Origin: Woeseia sp.
GTDB taxonomy: Bacteria; Pseudomonadota; Gammaproteobacteria; Steroidobacterales; Woeseiaceae
Reading direction: 5' to 3'
Assembly (NCBI GenBank): GCA_013003155.1
Contig: JABDKF010000249.1
Location: forward strand, 1 to 33,693
DNA length: 33,693 bases
Position numbers and translations under genes: made by a program. Below are positions 6,105-15,181 of this stretch, one piece after another. How positions within the stretch are numbered: the first letter of the stretch is position 1; each line of letters starts with the position of its first letter. The notes beneath the pieces were generated by a model. That model saw only the letters and a list, made by a program, of their open reading frames with translations, was not told the origin of the DNA and ran no database searches.

Positions 6105-7859
6105 CTACCAGCGGTATTTAAGTTCGAGAAAAACGCTGCGTTCTGCCATCTGGTAGGGCGCAGCGGTCTGGTAACGGGTATTCAACAGGTTTTCCAGCCG
6201 CGAATGCAATTGCCAGTGCTGCCCCAGTTTAAACTGTCCGGTGACATTCAGCAGCACGTAGCCCGGCAAGCTCTCTGCGATATCCTGACGACGGCTGCTC
6301 GCCAGCATCGACAGGCCCAGCAGGTGGTTGCCGATCTCCCGGGTAACATTGATCGTCAGACTGCGTTCCGCGCGGCGCAAGAGCTTACTGCCATCGGCGG
6401 CATTCTCTGCGCTTTGGGATACAAGATCGGCGCGCAATCTGAACAAGTCGCCGCGGTATGTCCAACCCAACTGACCCCCGCGAATTTTTGCGCGCGCCAG
6501 GTTTTGCAGTGTGAATGAGTTGAAATCAAATTCAATGAGATCGTTGATATCGTTGCTGAAGAGATCGAAGCGCAACAGGTTGCGCGGATTGACCTCGACC
6601 TCTACCCCCAGTTGAATTTCGTCCGCGACCTCAGGCCGCAACGTGGTGTTGCCACCAAATCCGAAACGGTCAGTTGCATCGGGCGCGCGGAATGCGCGTG
6701 CCATGCCTGCGCTCAGCGACCAGGCATCGTTGAGGTCAAATGCGACCTCAGCGTTCCAGGTGAACTCATTGCCAAATGTTTCATGATCGGTATAACGGCC
6801 AGCGAGAAATGCACGGAGCCGGCCGCGGGTAATGCTGTCCTGCAAAAACAGCGCCCGCGTTGCGGTGTCCTCGCTGAAGCCGCTGCCGAAAGATTCTGCC
6901 CGGGCATTCTCTTCCGTGGCATAAATACCGGCGGCCAGGTTGTGACCCGGTAACGATACAGAGTAAAGCCAATCAAGGGCATACCGTCGGGAAGTTACAA
7001 AATCCGGCGACTGGTTCTGGTCGATCTTGTCGATCATATGGCTAAGTAGCAGGCGGCTTTCTGAGCGTTCGCCGAGAGGCGTGGTCACCTCGAGGGCGCT
7101 ACTTTGATTCTGATAATCCTGATCCACCGGCGCCAGGAAAAAGTCGAGATACTCGCTGTTGCCGCGAGCACTCCAATGGCGGAGATTAACAGTCGACCGG
7201 CCAATCTGTCGGCTGCCATAAATGTTGGCGCTAAAATTGTCATAGCCACGTTCGATTTCGCTGTCAGCACGAACTGCATATCCATCCGTATCCTGAACAT
7301 TAAGCGTGACGCCGAGCTCACCGGCGTCGGTAGCTGCGCCAAAACTTGTGTAGGCGGATTGCGTCGAAAAACTTCCGGCGCTGGCACCCGCTTCTGCGTA
7401 GCCACTGCCGGCGCGACGAGTGATGATGTTGATAACGCCGCCAATTGCATCCGTTCCGTACAGTGACGATCGTGCGCCTTTAACTATTTCGATACGCTCG
7501 ATCAGTTCGGGTGAGATGTTTTGCAGTGCTGCACCGCCAATCGTTCCCGGGTTAATGCGTACGCCGTCGATGAGGACCAGCGTGTGGTTGCTTTCGGTGC
7601 CGCGGAGGAAAACTGAGCTCGCCTGACCTGGCCCACCGTTGCGGCCGATGTCGAGACCCGCCTCGAAGCGCAGCAGTTCAGTAACGTCTCTTGCGGCTGC
7701 AAGTTCGATTTGCTCACGGTTAATAATCGTGACCGGTACGATCACGTCCTGCAGCGCAATTTCGTTGCGCGTTGCCGTGACCACGATGACATCGTCGTCC
7801 GCAACTGCGAACACCGGCAGCAGCGCAATGATCAGAAAAAATGTTCGAGTAAAAAGCAT
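6105..7859 (-). CDS. btuB: BtuB, TonB-dependent vitamin B12 outer-membrane receptor
   Basis: A 584-residue outer-membrane beta-barrel importer of cobalamin powered by TonB. A signal peptide (about 20 residues, ending AVA) is followed at once by a TonB box (DVIVVTA). The plug domain has 'NGGPGQASSVFLRGTESNHT', 'VLIDGVRIN' and 'YGTDAIGGVINIITRR', all very close to E. coli BtuB. The last residues (LELKYRW) form an aromatic-ending outer-membrane strand. A ribosome-binding site (AGGAAGG) lies just before the ATG. Control by cobalamin is evident from the riboswitch upstream at about 7976-8222. Confidence 0.96.
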   Translation of the reverse strand: MLFTRTFFLIIALLPVFAVADDDVIVVTATRNEIALQDVIVPVTIINREQIELAAARDVTELLRFEAGLDIGRNGGPGQASSVFLRGTESNHTLVLIDGVRINPGTIGGAALQNISPELIERIEIVKGARSSLYGTDAIGGVINIITRRAGSGYAEAGASAGSFSTQSAYTSFGAATDAGELGVTLNVQDTDGYAVRADSEIERGYDNFSANIYGSRQIGRSTVNLRHWSARGNSEYLDFFLAPVDQDYQNQSSALEVTTPLGERSESRLLLSHMIDKIDQNQSPDFVTSRRYALDWLYSVSLPGHNLAAGIYATEENARAESFGSGFSEDTATRALFLQDSITRGRLRAFLAGRYTDHETFGNEFTWNAEVAFDLNDAWSLSAGMARAFRAPDATDRFGFGGNTTLRPEVADEIQLGVEVEVNPRNLLRFDLFSNDINDLIEFDFNSFTLQNLARAKIRGGQLGWTYRGDLFRLRADLVSQSAENAADGSKLLRRAERSLTINVTREIGNHLLGLSMLASSRRQDIAESLPGYVLLNVTGQFKLGQHWQLHSRLENLLNTRYQTAAPYQMAERSVFLELKYRW

Positions 7860-7975
7860 TCCACCTTCCTTCGCATGCCGCCCGCATGCCGTGCCAATCG
7901 ATAGAACGAGAAGCTTGCGGGGAGAGAAGGACGCACAGCAGAAGGCACGTCCGAACAGCCGCCCGCCGCGCCGTT

Positions 7976-8222
7976 CGTGTGTTCATCGGGCCGGTCTCCG
8001 GGCTTACGAGCGGCGCTAAACGCCGGTTCACAGCGCCTTCCCGCGAATTATCGCGCCCGATGGGCACGGGGTCTCGCAGTGGCTCCGGTGTGCGTGTTGC
8101 ACATCGGGGGCTGTGGCTTAACTCGATCACCGTTGCGGGGGCAGCGCCGGATTAAGGAGCAAAAAACACTCCACACCGGCTTCCCGTTCACCCGAATCAA
8201 TGCCAATCCGGGCTCACCTGAT
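7976..8222 (-). ncRNA. cobalamin (AdoCbl-type) riboswitch upstream of btuB
   Basis: Read on the minus strand, this leader contains the canonical elements in order: GGGAA then GGTG near 8173-8186, GCTGCCCCCGCAAC near 8131-8144, GCCACTG near 8078-8084, a second GGGAAGGC near 8034-8041, and the B12 box AGCCCGGAGACCGGCC at 7989-8004. Cobalamin riboswitches bind adenosylcobalamin or another cobalamin and repress B12 uptake genes. The distance from the B12 box to the btuB ATG is about 130 bases. I see no good poly-U terminator in between, so control of translation seems more likely (inference). Outer borders are approximate. Confidence 0.95.
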
Positions 8223-8231
8223 GAGGCGGCC

Positions 8232-8260
8232 ACACTAGGTATAGTGTCCGTCGCTGTCAA
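8232..8260 (-). promoter_or_regulatory. sigma-70 promoter of the btuB riboswitch leader
   Basis: On the minus strand a perfect TTGACA (8260-8255) is followed by 17 bases and TAGTGT (8237-8232; the key T, A and final T are kept). Transcription would start near 8225, just before the riboswitch begins. The -10 lies in a small dyad, ACACTA-GGTA-TAGTGT at 8232-8247, which could bind a regulator. Confidence 0.65.
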
Positions 8261-10813: not shown

Positions 10814-12382
10814 TCACGGGCGCATTGGATTTGTTGGATCGGGCACCCGGCGTGCTTTTCCGGCCTGTTCGAACGCGAATGCCATTTCGATCAACTGCCG
10901 TTCGCTGAAGGCGGTGCCGATAAAAGACAGACCAATCGGCAAGCCGAACACGTTGCCGGCCGGAACGGTCACATTGGCATAACCGGAAACCGCGGCGAAC
11001 GAGGAGCTGCCAACGCTAAAGTGATCGCCAAGCACATGGTCCGTCATCCAGGAGGGGCCGTTCGACGGAGCGATCAAGGCGTCGAGCTTGAATTCGCTCA
11101 ACGCCTTATCGATTCCTTCCTGCGCAATACGCTTCGAGTCGGCTAGTGCCTGCAGGTAGGCAGCATCCGTCAGCGGTCCTTTCTCCTGAGCGGCGATCAA
11201 ATTGTCCTGACCAAAAAACGGCATCGTGGCGTCCGCATTCTGCGTGTTGAACTCGATCACGTCGGCAAGCGAGCCGACCTCGGCACCGGCTGAGGCGAGA
11301 TAGCGATTCAGGTCGGCCTTGAATTCATACAGCAGTACGCCGTACTCCGCATCGCCCATGCCCTCAGTGTCGATATTTACGGGATCGATGATCTCAGCCC
11401 CGTTCTCCTCGATTAATCGAATGCTTTGGGCAAAGACTTCCTCAACCCGGGCATTCCGGCCTGAGCCGCCATAGGTACGCAGCACACCGATTCGCTTGCC
11501 CTGCAGGGCATCGGTCCGCAGGTCGGCGGCATAATCGGGCAATGTATCCGGCCTGTTTGACATCGCCGGGTCCTGATCGTCATGCGCCACCAGAACGTTG
11601 AGCAGCAGTGCCGCGTCTTTTACCGTCCGCGCCATCGGCCCGGCTGTATCCTGGCTGTGTGCGATGGGAATAATGCCGTCGCGACTGACCAGCCCGAGTG
11701 TCGGCTTGATACCCACAATGCCGTTGATCGAAGATGGGCAAATAATGGAACCGTCCGTTTCCGTGCCGATCGCCAACACGGTGAGATTTGCGGAAACCGC
11801 AACGGCCGAACCGGAAGAAGAACCACAGGGGTTGCGGCGGGGATCGTAAGCATTATTCGTTTGACCGCCGATACTGCTCCAGCCACTCGATGAATCGCGC
11901 GAACGGAAGTTCGCCCACTCGCTGAGATTCGCTTTCGCGAGTATCACAGCACCCGCTTCGCGCAATCGCGCAACGAGGAACGCGTCATCGGGAGCTCGAT
12001 GATCACGAAGCGCGAGAGAGCCGGCGCTGGTCGCCATCTGATCGCCAGTATCGATGTTTGCTTTTAACACGACCGGAACGCCGTGCAGCGGGCCGCGGCT
12101 CTGTCCGGCAGCACGCTCCCGATCGAGCTCATCGGCGATTGCCAGCGCGTCAGGATTGACTTCGATAATTGAATTGAGGATGGGGCCGTTGCGATCAATG
12201 GCCTCAATGCGTTCGAGATAAAGCTCAACAATTACACGCGTGCTGACTGAATCGTCCTGCAACGCACGTTGCAAACTGGCGATCGTGGCTTCTTCGATTG
12301 CGAATCGCGGGGCCTCTGTTTTTTCCGCACAAGCCGAGAACAGCAAGGCGCTCAGCAGTAGGGCTTTCACTTTTAGACTCAT
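10814..12382 (-). CDS. exported amidase-signature family protein (lipoprotein amidase)
   Basis: An amidase-signature hydrolase of about 522 residues. The Ser-cisSer-Lys triad is readable: Lys in 'VPVVLKANIDTGDQ', the Gly/Ser-rich 'NPCGSSSGSAVAVSANL', and the nucleophile region 'ETDGSIICPSSINGIVGIKPT'. The ATG at 12,382 gives a lipoprotein-like signal peptide (MSLKVKALLLSALLFSAC) and has GGAG seven bases upstream; the frame is open to 12,445 but the extra residues have no signal character. Exported amidases of this group (annotated as amidase or GatA-like) act on amides in the periplasm; the substrate is unknown. It is not the tRNA amidotransferase subunit, given the signal peptide and the absence of gatB/gatC. 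Confidence 0.88.
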   Translation of the reverse strand: MSLKVKALLLSALLFSACAEKTEAPRFAIEEATIASLQRALQDDSVSTRVIVELYLERIEAIDRNGPILNSIIEVNPDALAIADELDRERAAGQSRGPLHGVPVVLKANIDTGDQMATSAGSLALRDHRAPDDAFLVARLREAGAVILAKANLSEWANFRSRDSSSGWSSIGGQTNNAYDPRRNPCGSSSGSAVAVSANLTVLAIGTETDGSIICPSSINGIVGIKPTLGLVSRDGIIPIAHSQDTAGPMARTVKDAALLLNVLVAHDDQDPAMSNRPDTLPDYAADLRTDALQGKRIGVLRTYGGSGRNARVEEVFAQSIRLIEENGAEIIDPVNIDTEGMGDAEYGVLLYEFKADLNRYLASAGAEVGSLADVIEFNTQNADATMPFFGQDNLIAAQEKGPLTDAAYLQALADSKRIAQEGIDKALSEFKLDALIAPSNGPSWMTDHVLGDHFSVGSSSFAAVSGYANVTVPAGNVFGLPIGLSFIGTAFSERQLIEMAFAFEQAGKARRVPDPTNPMRP

Positions 12383-12517
12383 CGCTTGACTCCGCGAGCG
12401 CTGCCGAAATGTGGCAGACGAGCGTAAAGGCCGCGCCAGCCTCACGCAAGCGCAACCAGGGAGTTTGGCTCAAGGCCGAATTGAGAAAGTACCGAACAGA
12501 ATTAAAGGGTCACAAAT

Positions 12518-12544
12518 AAAAAACCCCGCGGTGAACCGCGGGGT
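12518..12544 (-). terminator. strong intrinsic terminator
   Basis: On the minus strand a 9-10 bp GC-rich stem (ACCCCGCGGT at 12,544-12,535 pairing with ACCGCGGGGT at 12,532-12,523) is followed by six T residues (12,523-12,518) and then ATTT. It ends the proposed sRNA and insulates the amidase gene from it. It is too far (about 465 bases) from the stop at 13,009 to be that gene's own terminator, and that gene already has one. Confidence 0.85.
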
Positions 12545-12721
12545 CAATCTCTCTTCTTATTATTAGAGAGGTAACTGGTTATTCGGCAAGCAAATACAAA
12601 TTATTATTGGAATTGGATTTCAAACTTATCGTTATTATTATTTTTTATAATTTTTCTTCTGGCGTCTTAGATCCTGTCTGTATTTTTTGCGCTTGCCCTC
12701 CAGTTACGCTTCGCTTGGGCA
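12518..12721 (-). ncRNA. candidate sigma-54-dependent small RNA with AAUAAUAA motifs
   Basis: The proposed RNA of about 204 nt runs from the predicted start of a -24/-12 promoter to an intrinsic terminator. It contains no ATG and no convincing small ORF. Visible structure: GUAACUGG (12,707-12,700) is fully complementary to CCAGUUAC (12,578-12,571), and GGCAAGC (12,697-12,691) to GCUUGCC (12,591-12,585), so a two-part long-range stem would close an A/U-rich loop. That loop holds AAUAAUAA at 12,632-12,642 (overlapping copies) and at 12,601-12,608. A third AAUAAUAA (12,557-12,564) is displayed in the loop of a CUCUCU/AGAGAG hairpin at 12,549-12,570. AAYAAYAA is the Crc/Hfq 'CA motif' of Pseudomonas CrcZ-type RNAs, which are also sigma-54 driven. 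The resemblance is inference; homology is not shown. Confidence 0.66.
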
Positions 12722-12731
12722 AGTCTTATAA

Positions 12732-12748
12732 AGCAAGAGCTGTGCCAG
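12732..12748 (-). promoter_or_regulatory. sigma-54 (-24/-12) promoter
   Basis: On the minus strand the site reads CTGGCACA-GCTC-TTGCT, against the consensus YTGGCACG-N4-TTGCW. GG (12,746-12,745) and GC (12,734-12,733) are exactly 12 bases apart. The predicted start is near 12,721. No annotated gene starts downstream before the terminator at 12,518-12,544. Confidence 0.78.
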
Positions 12749-12798: not shown

Positions 12799-12823
12799 AA
12801 GCACGCGCTTTTGTAGCGTGCTT
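12799..12823. promoter_or_regulatory. dyad upstream of the sigma-54 promoter, likely enhancer-binding-protein site
   Basis: Perfect inverted repeat AAGCACGC - 9 bases - GCGTGCTT, centred about 90 bases before the predicted sigma-54 start. This spacing suits an NtrC/CbrB-type activator. Neither side is followed by a T run in the transcribed sense, so it is not a terminator. The protein that would bind it is unknown. Confidence 0.5.
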
Positions 12824-12956
12824 GTAAAAAATTTCGACATGCGAAGTTGGGCAATTCTGCAACAGGTCTCGCGTGCGGTCCGTAACTAATTGAATAATAT
12901 GAATGAATGTTTCTGCCCCCGAACCTGTCGGCCATCCCCGGGGTATGTATTATGTG

Positions 12957-12980: not shown

Positions 12981-13004
12981 AATGTCCACTTTCCGGACAT
13001 TTGT
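12978..13004. repeat. perfect 10-bp inverted repeat after the amidohydrolase gene
   Basis: ACAAATGTCC - 7 bases - GGACATTTGT, starting five bases past the stop codon. As RNA it forms a stable hairpin directly before and overlapping the terminator hairpin; as DNA it could be a protein-binding dyad. Function is unknown. Confidence 0.6.
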
Positions 13005-13008
13005 AAAA

Positions 13009-15000
13009 TTATTCGACATCTTGAGGCGTTGCATCTTGCAGCAGCCTCGCGGCGCTGTAGAAACGCCCGTCCCGCACCACAGCAATGACTTCACCCACGT
13101 CGGCCAGCCGTCTGAGCGGGTCGCCTGTGACGAGCACCAGGTCGGCGCGCGAGCCGGCCTGCAATCTACCAATCTCCCCACCGGCACCTAGCGCATCGGC
13201 GGCGCCGCTAGTAGCAGCAACGAGCACATCGCGAGGACTCATGCCAACGGCGAGCAACGCCAAAAGCTCCGCTTGCGTCGCGAAGCCTGCCGGCAACCCG
13301 GACGGCCGGCTCCCGACAATGACGGTCGCGCTGCCCGCCAGCCAGCCGGGCTCGCCCGCAATACCTTGGCCAGAGAGGTTTTCGAGCTGCAAGCTACGAC
13401 CTTGCGGAGTTTGCTGCAGGTGACCAAGCCCTGGAGTTGTGCGTCCTGCCGCTCCAGAAACCAGCAGCATTTGCCGCCCGTCCGCCAGCTTGAGAACGTC
13501 GTCATAATGACGGCCGCTCGGTGAAGTCGGGAAGGTGGCGGTGCCAAGCAGCATGTCCGCGCCGGCCAGTAGTCCGGAATTCCAGTTAGCAGCCAGCAGC
13601 GGCAGGCCCTCTTGTCGCCACATCGAAATTGAGCGACTTCGGGCAATCTGAAAACCTGACGAATCAGGTATCTGCACCGCTCTTACGAAGGCCCTGGCGT
13701 CGCCGCTGGACGCGTCATTAACCGCGGCAACGGTTAACAAACGCGGGCCCGGTTGCGCAGCAGCATGCCATGTCGTTCGCGCCTGCTCGGGCGACAGGTC
13801 GGGGGATACCAGCGTTGTCACGCCGAAGGCCAATATGCGGGAGCCGAGGGCAGGCGTAAGGTTTGCTGGCAACGCTCCGTAGCTGTCGATTAAGCCGGGC
13901 AGCGCGGTGCTGTCGGGGATATCAATAACCAGCACATCGCCACGATCACGCTGTTCTTCAATCGCGGCAATGCGGCCGTTCTCAATGACGATGTCGACAC
14001 TATGCCGGTACTGGTCGCTCTCGCCGTCAAACAGGCGACTTGCGCGAATCACCATGCTGCCGCTTAGCGGCTTTGTGTTTGGCAAAGGCCGCTCATGCCG
14101 TCGCCATTGCGTCCACCGTTCAGATTTGCCAACGGCTGCAGAGAACGGCAGCGTCCGGGACTTCCGATCTTCGAAATGGCGCCACTTGATGACGCCGTCG
14201 GCCGCGTAAATGAATCGTGAGCGATCGCGCCAGGCAACGGGTGAGGCAAAGAAGTCTTCGCCGCTGGCATAAACGCGCGCCAGCGGTGGATCAGCCGGGA
14301 TGAGTATCATCAGGTCCAGCAGGCCGACCTCGTTTTGTGCGAGGAACGAAATCAAGGTGTTATCCGGTCGCCACGCAGGAGCGTAAATCGGCCGTGCCGA
14401 TTCGTGCAGGATTTGCGGCAGCTGACCCCAGCGTTTCAGCATCAGGTACCAGCGATTGCCCTCGTAGAGTCGGTAAATCAGGTGCCGGCCGTCGGCAGAC
14501 CATGCCGGGGATGATTCGTCACCCGCGTGATCCGTAAGCCGTGATGCCACACCGGTCGTCAGGTCCCGTTGCCAAATATCGAGACCGCTATCGTGGCGTG
14601 CCGCGGCAAACACGATTTGCTCTCCCGTCGGGTGCCAGGCGCCGTCTTGCTCCACTTGTATTGCTGGTGTGATGCGCTCCGGGACGTCATCTGCAAGCGC
14701 AATGCGCCAGAGTGAACTGCCGCCTGCGCGATTGCTGGCAAACAGTGCTGAAGTGCCATCGGGAGACCAGCGGGGCGCGCGGGCCTGCCAGTTGGCGTCG
14801 ACAAGCCGTCGTGCGTCACCGCCGCGGGCGGGAATGAGCCAGATGCTGCCAAGCAGGTCCGTGAGAACCCTGCCGTCGGCCGCGTTGATATCGGCACTGA
14901 TGTTCGTGCCCTGTGTCAATCGCAACTCAGCGGCCGGCAGCGGTGCAGCAAAAGGAATCAAGACAGCTGCCAGCACTAGCTGGCGAAACTCAGGAATCAC
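13009..15000 (-). CDS. exported TolB-like propeller/amidohydrolase fusion with degenerate active site
   Basis: Signal peptide first (QLVLAAVLIPFAAPLPAA). An N-terminal TolB/PD40-type beta-propeller follows with at least four blades: 'APRWSPDGTSALFASNRAGG', 'GAWHPTGEQIVFAAARHD', 'SPAWSADGRHLIYRLYEG' and 'APAWRPDNTLISFLA'. The C-terminal half is amidohydrolase-like: a composite sandwich strand (SRLFDGES, IVIENGRIAAIEE), then 'ALPGLIDSYGALPANL' and the closing 'GEIGRLQAGSRADLVLVTGDPL'. Active members have PGxIDxHxH; here HxH is replaced by SYG (about 13,871-13,905), and the barrel between these motifs is short, so hydrolase activity is doubtful. The start is uncertain: GTG at 15,000 has AGGT upstream and overlaps the CPxCG gene by 11 bases; ATG at 15,027 adds nine residues without a visible ribosome-binding site. 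It is last in the pdxH operon. Confidence 0.8.
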   Translation of the reverse strand: MIPEFRQLVLAAVLIPFAAPLPAAELRLTQGTNISADINAADGRVLTDLLGSIWLIPARGGDARRLVDANWQARAPRWSPDGTSALFASNRAGGSSLWRIALADDVPERITPAIQVEQDGAWHPTGEQIVFAAARHDSGLDIWQRDLTTGVASRLTDHAGDESSPAWSADGRHLIYRLYEGNRWYLMLKRWGQLPQILHESARPIYAPAWRPDNTLISFLAQNEVGLLDLMILIPADPPLARVYASGEDFFASPVAWRDRSRFIYAADGVIKWRHFEDRKSRTLPFSAAVGKSERWTQWRRHERPLPNTKPLSGSMVIRASRLFDGESDQYRHSVDIVIENGRIAAIEEQRDRGDVLVIDIPDSTALPGLIDSYGALPANLTPALGSRILAFGVTTLVSPDLSPEQARTTWHAAAQPGPRLLTVAAVNDASSGDARAFVRAVQIPDSSGFQIARSRSISMWRQEGLPLLAANWNSGLLAGADMLLGTATFPTSPSGRHYDDVLKLADGRQMLLVSGAAGRTTPGLGHLQQTPQGRSLQLENLSGQGIAGEPGWLAGSATVIVGSRPSGLPAGFATQAELLALLAVGMSPRDVLVAATSGAADALGAGGEIGRLQAGSRADLVLVTGDPLRRLADVGEVIAVVRDGRFYSAARLLQDATPQDVE

Positions 15001-15181
15001 CGCTGACCTGCAGGAAAAGAATTTCATTGTCACTGCAGGCAAATTCAACGCGCATCGGCCGGCAACAAATCTGGCAGTCCTCGACGTAAGTCTGGTCGCC
15101 GGCAGAGGTATCGATAACGATGTGCATCCGTTCGCCACAGTAGGGGCAGCGTACGGGTTTTTCGTGTAACGGATCGTGCAT
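14990..15181 (-). CDS. CPxCG-motif cysteine-rich small protein (zinc-ribbon-like)
   Basis: A 63-residue protein with two Cys knuckles, RCPYCGER and DCQICCRP, about 22 residues apart, as in the CPXCG-motif cysteine-rich family found in many gammaproteobacteria. It probably binds zinc; its function is not known. The ATG at 15,181 gives the family length; the frame stays open to 15,304 only by running into the 3' end of pdxH in another frame. It is ten bases after pdxH and overlaps the next gene, so the three form an operon. Confidence 0.82.
   Translation of the reverse strand: MHDPLHEKPVRCPYCGERMHIVIDTSAGDQTYVEDCQICCRPMRVEFACSDNEILFLQVSGDS

Follow-up and report, generated by a model that had tools for sequence, protein, structure and literature searches.

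In the analysed Woeseia sp. DNA (33,693 nucleotides, here called the window), a PD40/amidohydrolase-type gene (13009-15138) and an amidase gene (10814-12445) flank a gap that carries what is, judging by the sequence, a free-standing and apparently uncatalogued Woeseiaceae small RNA (sRNA) of about 205 nt. The sequence evidence shows its transcription unit, sigma-54 box, fixed enhancer motif, conserved triplet tracts, structure and distribution. With modest confidence, we favour a reading in which this sRNA would be driven by PrsR/PrsK and sigma-54, would dock on Hfq by its A-rich tracts and, most likely, would titrate it.

The sRNA is intergenic and is read from the minus strand (12517-12721), its start being predicted from the -12 element and its end from the terminator; conservation extends from promoter to terminator. 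The sigma-54 promoter is a perfect -24/-12 box (TGGCACAGCTCTTGC, 12733-12747, minus strand) with the predicted start near 12721, and the box is found in all 66 distinct family sequences. The unit is closed by a strong intrinsic terminator with a T6 tail (12518-12545, minus strand), yielding a sigma-54 promoter ahead of a terminated sRNA, as in CrcZ. The 5' end of the sRNA (TGCCCAAGCGAAGC, 12708-12721, minus strand), possibly a pairing segment, is near-invariant in the family and replaced in other families. There is almost no variation within the family in the first 20 nt and in the GACGCCAGAAGAA segment; the 5'-end motif served in the family-wide selection of loci, with 30 loci, from an unbiased DNA search, being independent of that. 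Nearly all family loci share this amidohydrolase gene as the upstream neighbor, and the downstream genes differ. Elsewhere in the window, a TonB-receptor-like gene (6105-7859) is preceded by a cobalamin riboswitch (7972-8236, minus strand; Rfam RF00174, 80 bits), with genes for B12 transport and adenosylation nearby.

A preliminary description of this DNA noted three A-rich motifs in the gap, one of them in a hairpin loop, and proposed a Crc/Hfq-type sponge. The AATAATAA / AAUAAUAA motif is indeed found at these positions on the minus strand, in four copies: two overlapping ones at 12642-12635 and 12639-12632, and one each at 12608-12601 and 12564-12557. The last copy does lie in the 10-nt loop of a 6-bp hairpin formed by CTCTCT (12570-12565) and AGAGAG (12554-12549); the arms of this element (CTCTCT-AATAATAAGA-AGAGAG, 12549-12570, minus strand) recur in homologues. 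The accompanying caution, that copies could arise by chance in an AT-rich segment, was not borne out, as shuffles that preserve dinucleotides, made from either the intergenic region or the sRNA, yield on average 0.10-0.11 copies, and none of 2000 shuffles reached four. The whole window, both strands included, has only six copies versus 2.3 expected; therefore, the enrichment is local.

Alignment A1, of 65 distinct homologues, has on average 3.3 AAYAAYAA copies per homologue versus 0.08 in shuffles, with at least one copy in 64 of the 65, and the mean unpaired probability of the motif sites is 0.90. Conservation of the motif, suggested earlier as a check, holds at two of the three places and fails at the third. 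The motif is kept in 51 of the 65 homologues at 12642-12632, within A-tract 1 (12631-12658, minus strand), which consists of AAN/ARN triplets between the arms of a GGAUUU/GAUCC-type stem, and in 56 in A-tract 2 (CAATAATAAT, 12600-12609, minus strand), but the hairpin-loop copy, the least conserved one, is retained in 11. The triplet register of tract 1 is conserved as AAG-AAN-AAY-AAY-NAY-AAA-AAY-AAN-AAG, with A at positions 1 and 2 of the triplets in 87-100% of the sequences (the exception being the first position of the fifth triplet) and with a mostly variable position 3. AAN runs in this tract amount to 5.4, versus 3.0 in base-shuffled tracts; none of 200 shuffled sets exceeded 3.3. Hfq prefers ARN triplets on its distal face, e.g. 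in the 18-nt amiE RNA of the Hfq/Crc structure, and CrcZ acts as a sponge (PMC6422490). From the type of the motif, this A-A-N register, conserved with position 3 left free, seems to be a signature of Hfq distal-face binding. The sRNA carries both a distal-face ARN element characteristic of Class II sRNAs, judged from sequence alone, and the multiple conserved, unpaired CA/ARN motifs seen in CrcZ-type RNAs.

The 209 nt spanning the sRNA (12725-12517) fold into a structure far more stable than those of shuffled sequences (z -6.2). The closing stem (helix 1) is formed by the 5' arm GTAACTG (12701-12707) and the 3' arm CAGTTAC (12571-12577), both on the minus strand; 97% of its alignment cells are paired, and it is mostly invariant. 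In the tested stems, 93-99% of the cells are paired and covariation exceeds that in shuffles and slid controls, the test being weakened by the relatedness of the sequences. The energy of the inner stem is -14.8 kcal/mol within species versus -12.1 between swapped species (-13.0 in the best of 200 swaps), with the same weakening by relatedness. Two other interpretations of the transcript were rejected: a small ORF, or a poly-Asn peptide encoded by the AAN tract, given in-frame stops in the tract of the window and frame-breaking indels among homologues, and a CsrA/RsmA sponge, for which conserved GGA motifs are too few.

A DNA search of 99 related genomes yielded matches in 47, nearly all from the same family, and the strong matches have the sigma-54 box and the terminator as their approximate limits. 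When a named collection was scanned with a pattern, 66 stretches were returned, mostly titled Woeseia/Woeseiaceae or unresolved proteobacterial MAGs; one of them (L074) has no promoter and was taken as a chance match. By an RNA model search, the sRNA was identified in 85 Woeseiaceae genomes, at one locus. The same family model also gave weak full-length matches outside Woeseiaceae, in families f15 and f6 of the order. These homologues have A-rich tracts, terminators, sigma-54 boxes (except for L164) and the enhancer, and their 5' sequences differ. A second RNA model, built from seven f15/f6 homologues, detected the sRNA in 32 f15 and 18 f6 genomes and independently recovered the family locus in 73 f1 genomes, at the same places where compared. 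By eye, parts of the wider neighbourhood seen in the window recur around the f15/f6 homologues, namely, a pyridoxamine-phosphate-oxidase-like gene upstream, and genes for an ABC ATPase and cobalamin adenosyltransferase downstream. Of 369 scanned genomes from the class, only three gave matches, all from the same order. No Rfam family matches the sRNA, and for CrcZ in Rfam there is no match even at E up to 10; weak matches to anti-hemB, ncS54 and ncr1575 were dismissed, being below gathering and mainly over the terminator end. In the literature, we found nothing on small RNAs of Woeseiaceae.

Upstream of the promoter, a 17-nt enhancer motif, TGTCG-N8-TACA, occurs twice. The near copy (TGTCGAAATTTTTTACA, 12823-12839, minus strand), a predicted PrsR site, has the same motif as PEP-CTERM promoters. 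In 59 of 62 scored family loci, it precedes the T of TGGC by 91-93 nt; the corresponding distance is 92 nt for almost all of the f15 loci listed and 90 nt for f6. The far copy (TGTCGAATAATTTTACA, 13002-13018, minus strand) shares bases with the stop codon of the gene upstream, its conservation being partly confounded by the coding end (VE-stop). According to the text description of Haft et al. (2006, PMC1569441), a 17-nt motif ending in TTTACA, sometimes repeated and followed by a sigma-54 box, is found upstream of proteobacterial PEP-CTERM genes, and the phylogenetic profile of this promoter element is matched to PrsR, PrsK, and PrsT. Compared with that description, the sRNA locus has the same elements, i.e. 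a motif ending in TTTACA and a conserved spacer to the -24/-12 box, with the motif present twice and about 75 nt of spacer. The difference is that PEP-CTERM promoters (PrsK/PrsR/RpoN) drive a protein gene, and here it is a non-coding RNA. Experimental dependence on RpoN has been shown for a PEP-CTERM gene (PMC9850573).

A search for the enhancer with a sigma-54 box in 396 genomes produced matches in 217, part of them by chance, as seen from a backwards control. Among 20 loci outside the known sRNA sites, hand-picked from these matches for good enhancer resemblance, two are RNA-like (L270 and L284), and most others open into a protein gene. All 14 extended protein loci (hand-picked, from the same order) encode proteins with a PEP-CTERM-like C-terminal segment, and nine of the ten scanned proteins from the hand-picked composite-promoter loci exceed the TIGR02595 cut-off. 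The enhancer consensus of the 14 PEP-CTERM loci is essentially equal to that of the sRNA, and in 13 of them the enhancer is at -90 to -93, though a wider range was allowed in the search. PrsR itself is encoded in the genome of the window (TIGR02915, 704.6 bits versus the cut-off of 502.6), and its orthologues in f15 and f6 genomes are 64-71% identical. Motif identity, together with the literature, points to PrsR as the activator of the sRNA. NtrC and a PAS-type bEBP, shared with f15 and f6, also co-occur with the sRNA, which counts against this.

Several further promoter-associated features were seen. L270 (family f8) and L284 (family f15) are A-rich and terminator-ended, have the same composite promoter, and may be diverged members of the sRNA family. 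In another genome of the same genus (G001), a PagP-like gene (lipid A acylation), possibly of the same regulon, has the enhancer motif of the sRNA together with a sigma-54 box in front of it (L145). In three Woeseiaceae genomes (L146, L147, L150), a different sigma-54 promoter, with CTGTC-N10-GACAG upstream, is followed by a 300-430 nt leader before a protein gene. Between the enhancer copies of the window, there are two perfect dyads on the minus strand, TGTCCGGAAAGTGGACA (12999-12983) and TGTCGCGGTTTAGCGACA (12980-12963), the latter fitting the E. coli GlrR consensus TGTCN10GACA; it could be an extra site or a terminator. An inverted repeat, AAGCACGC-N9-GCGTGCTT (12799-12823, minus strand), lies between the near enhancer and the promoter, and a ATTGRACATAAT box recurs some tens of nucleotides past the far enhancer in many homologues (e.g. 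L095, L064, L054).

Hfq is encoded in the genome of the window and in most relatives. In the nine genomes of genus g5 of the family (G005, G015, G019, G022, G025, G028, G031, G034, G037), 1.1-2.0 Mb in length, neither the Hfq gene nor the sRNA was found. In 60 genomes, Hfq and the sRNA are associated (Fisher p = 0.0015, phylogeny being ignored and small-genome loss being a confounder); eight genomes have Hfq without a detected sRNA, and five have the sRNA without a detected Hfq, part of these absences being gaps in drafts. Crc in the strict sense, with a catalytically dead ExoIII fold, was not found among nine family genomes, that of the window being 89% complete. The nearest homologues belong to the exonuclease III family, are 44-47% identical to Crc and, in the nine family genomes, have intact catalytic QET/GDWN/SDH residues, which Pseudomonas Crc lacks. 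CbrAB has been described as unique to Pseudomonadaceae (PMC8871633), and the conserved upstream site, TGTCG-N8-TACA, does not match the TGTTAC/GTAACA subsites of CbrB. Hence the earlier proposal survives in part. A sigma-54-type sRNA outside Pseudomonas with a CrcZ-like architecture is upheld by the box in all family sequences, the conserved, mostly unpaired tracts and the presence of hfq, and the sponge itself is what we infer from them. The Crc/CbrB catabolite-repression part is not supported, given the intact ExoIII residues, the PrsR-type enhancer in place of CbrB subsites, and the absence of a CrcZ match in Rfam.

The favoured mechanism would operate as follows. When PrsK is active, PrsR would bind the upstream TGTCG-N8-TACA sites and sigma-54 would transcribe the sRNA. 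The long-range stem would expose the A-rich AAN/ARN tracts, at least two of them, in loops; these tracts would bind the distal face of Hfq, and the U6 tail could bind the proximal face. The sRNA, accumulating as long as PrsK/PrsR is on, would most likely titrate Hfq, alone or with an unknown partner, so that Hfq would be drawn off A-rich mRNA leaders and other sRNAs. In design the sRNA would resemble CrcZ, with a coupling to the extracellular-matrix programme in place of CbrAB/Crc catabolite repression. The choice between titration and base-pairing with targets is the least certain part, and we put titration somewhat ahead. Replacement of the 5' sequence between families, while the tracts stay, favours titration. 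On the other hand, a 5' sequence so strongly conserved inside the family speaks for pairing, either as the sole function or as an additional one; near-invariance of the 5' 20 nt and of GACGCCAGAAGAA is more than a pure sponge needs and counts against titration.

The pairing alternative, a trans-acting Class II sRNA like ChiX and MgrR with the PrsR/sigma-54 control unchanged, is a serious possibility, if not the one we consider probable. The ARN tracts would then hold the sRNA on the distal face of Hfq, and the 5' end (GCCCAAGCGAAG) or the CCUCU segment would pair with mRNAs. Class II sRNAs bind Hfq via the distal face; the near-invariant 5' end and GACGCCAGAAGAA segment agree with this reading. 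The A-rich ARN elements and the U-tailed terminator are shared with ChiX and MgrR. However, the f15 and f6 homologues replace the 5' sequence and retain the tracts and the promoter, and several separate tracts exceed the need of one Hfq hexamer. Compared with ChiX and MgrR, the sRNA has longer A-tracts in several places, sigma-54 control, and no known target pairing. It is unlikely that the same sRNA depends on another activator, such as GlrR, NtrC or a PAS-type bEBP. GlrR, whose consensus is TGTCN10GACA (PMC8745638, PMC4987338), was first suspected from TGTC-N10-GACA in the window (12980-12963), and the genome has a GlrR orthologue; an NtrC-family regulator also activates GlmY/GlmZ via TGTC...GACA-like dyads and sigma-54. 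But the conserved site has a 9-nt spacer instead of 10 and matches PEP-CTERM promoters, and GlrR is disfavoured, as in two single-contig genomes carrying the sRNA (G087, G185) none of the enhancer-binding proteins was assigned as its orthologue (some loci there have no assignment). The sRNA also differs from GlmY/GlmZ in its A-rich tracts, in the absence of a sequence match and in not being located beside glrK/glrR. NtrC and the PAS-type bEBP are shared with f15 and f6, which speaks for them; the PAS-type protein (L104) was set aside as not decisive, as it co-occurs with the sRNA and is also present where the sRNA was not found.

A sponge of the CrcZ type serving catabolite repression, under CbrAB control and working together with a true Crc on Hfq, is largely refuted and now very improbable, notwithstanding the sigma-54 promoter with CA-type motifs, the presence of Hfq and the similarity of the exonuclease III family protein to Crc. 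The catalytically intact state of that protein, the enhancer of the PEP-CTERM type, the reported restriction of CbrAB to Pseudomonadaceae (PMC8871633) and the unmatched CrcZ in Rfam all contradict it. The sRNA shares with CrcZ/CrcY/CrcX of Pseudomonadaceae the sigma-54-driven, terminated organization and several ARN/CA tracts fit for binding Hfq on its distal face. By contrast, CrcZ is 407-426 nt long, so that the sRNA is roughly half its length, and has CbrB subsites in place of the PrsR/PEP-CTERM-type enhancer; here, strict Crc was not found, the locus is not beside cbrAB, and there is no sequence match. Finally, it is barely credible that there is no functional RNA, the motifs being chance occurrences in an AT-rich gap or parts of an amidase leader. 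The segment is A-rich, and the amidase gene follows it on the same strand, but promoter-to-terminator conservation across 85 genomes, covariation in the stems, motif counts far above shuffles, the terminator preceding the amidase gene, and the varying downstream genes contradict this.

We tentatively suggest, at somewhat less than even confidence, that the PEP-CTERM/exopolysaccharide (PrsK-PrsR-RpoN) programme includes a dedicated Hfq-titrating RNA, which would be a Crc-independent Hfq sponge outside Pseudomonas. In the literature, we found nothing joining PEP-CTERM with an sRNA and Hfq. Hfq sponges of the CrcZ type are known from Pseudomonadaceae, where they are linked to carbon catabolite repression; an Hfq-docking design under the promoter of a protein-sorting/matrix regulon would show that Hfq titration is wired to other programmes as well. 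The poorly understood PrsK/PrsR system would gain an RNA output. If the suggestion is true, switching on the matrix programme would also reshape Hfq-dependent post-transcriptional control, and the sRNA, as a holder of Hfq, would link matrix production to global RNA regulation.
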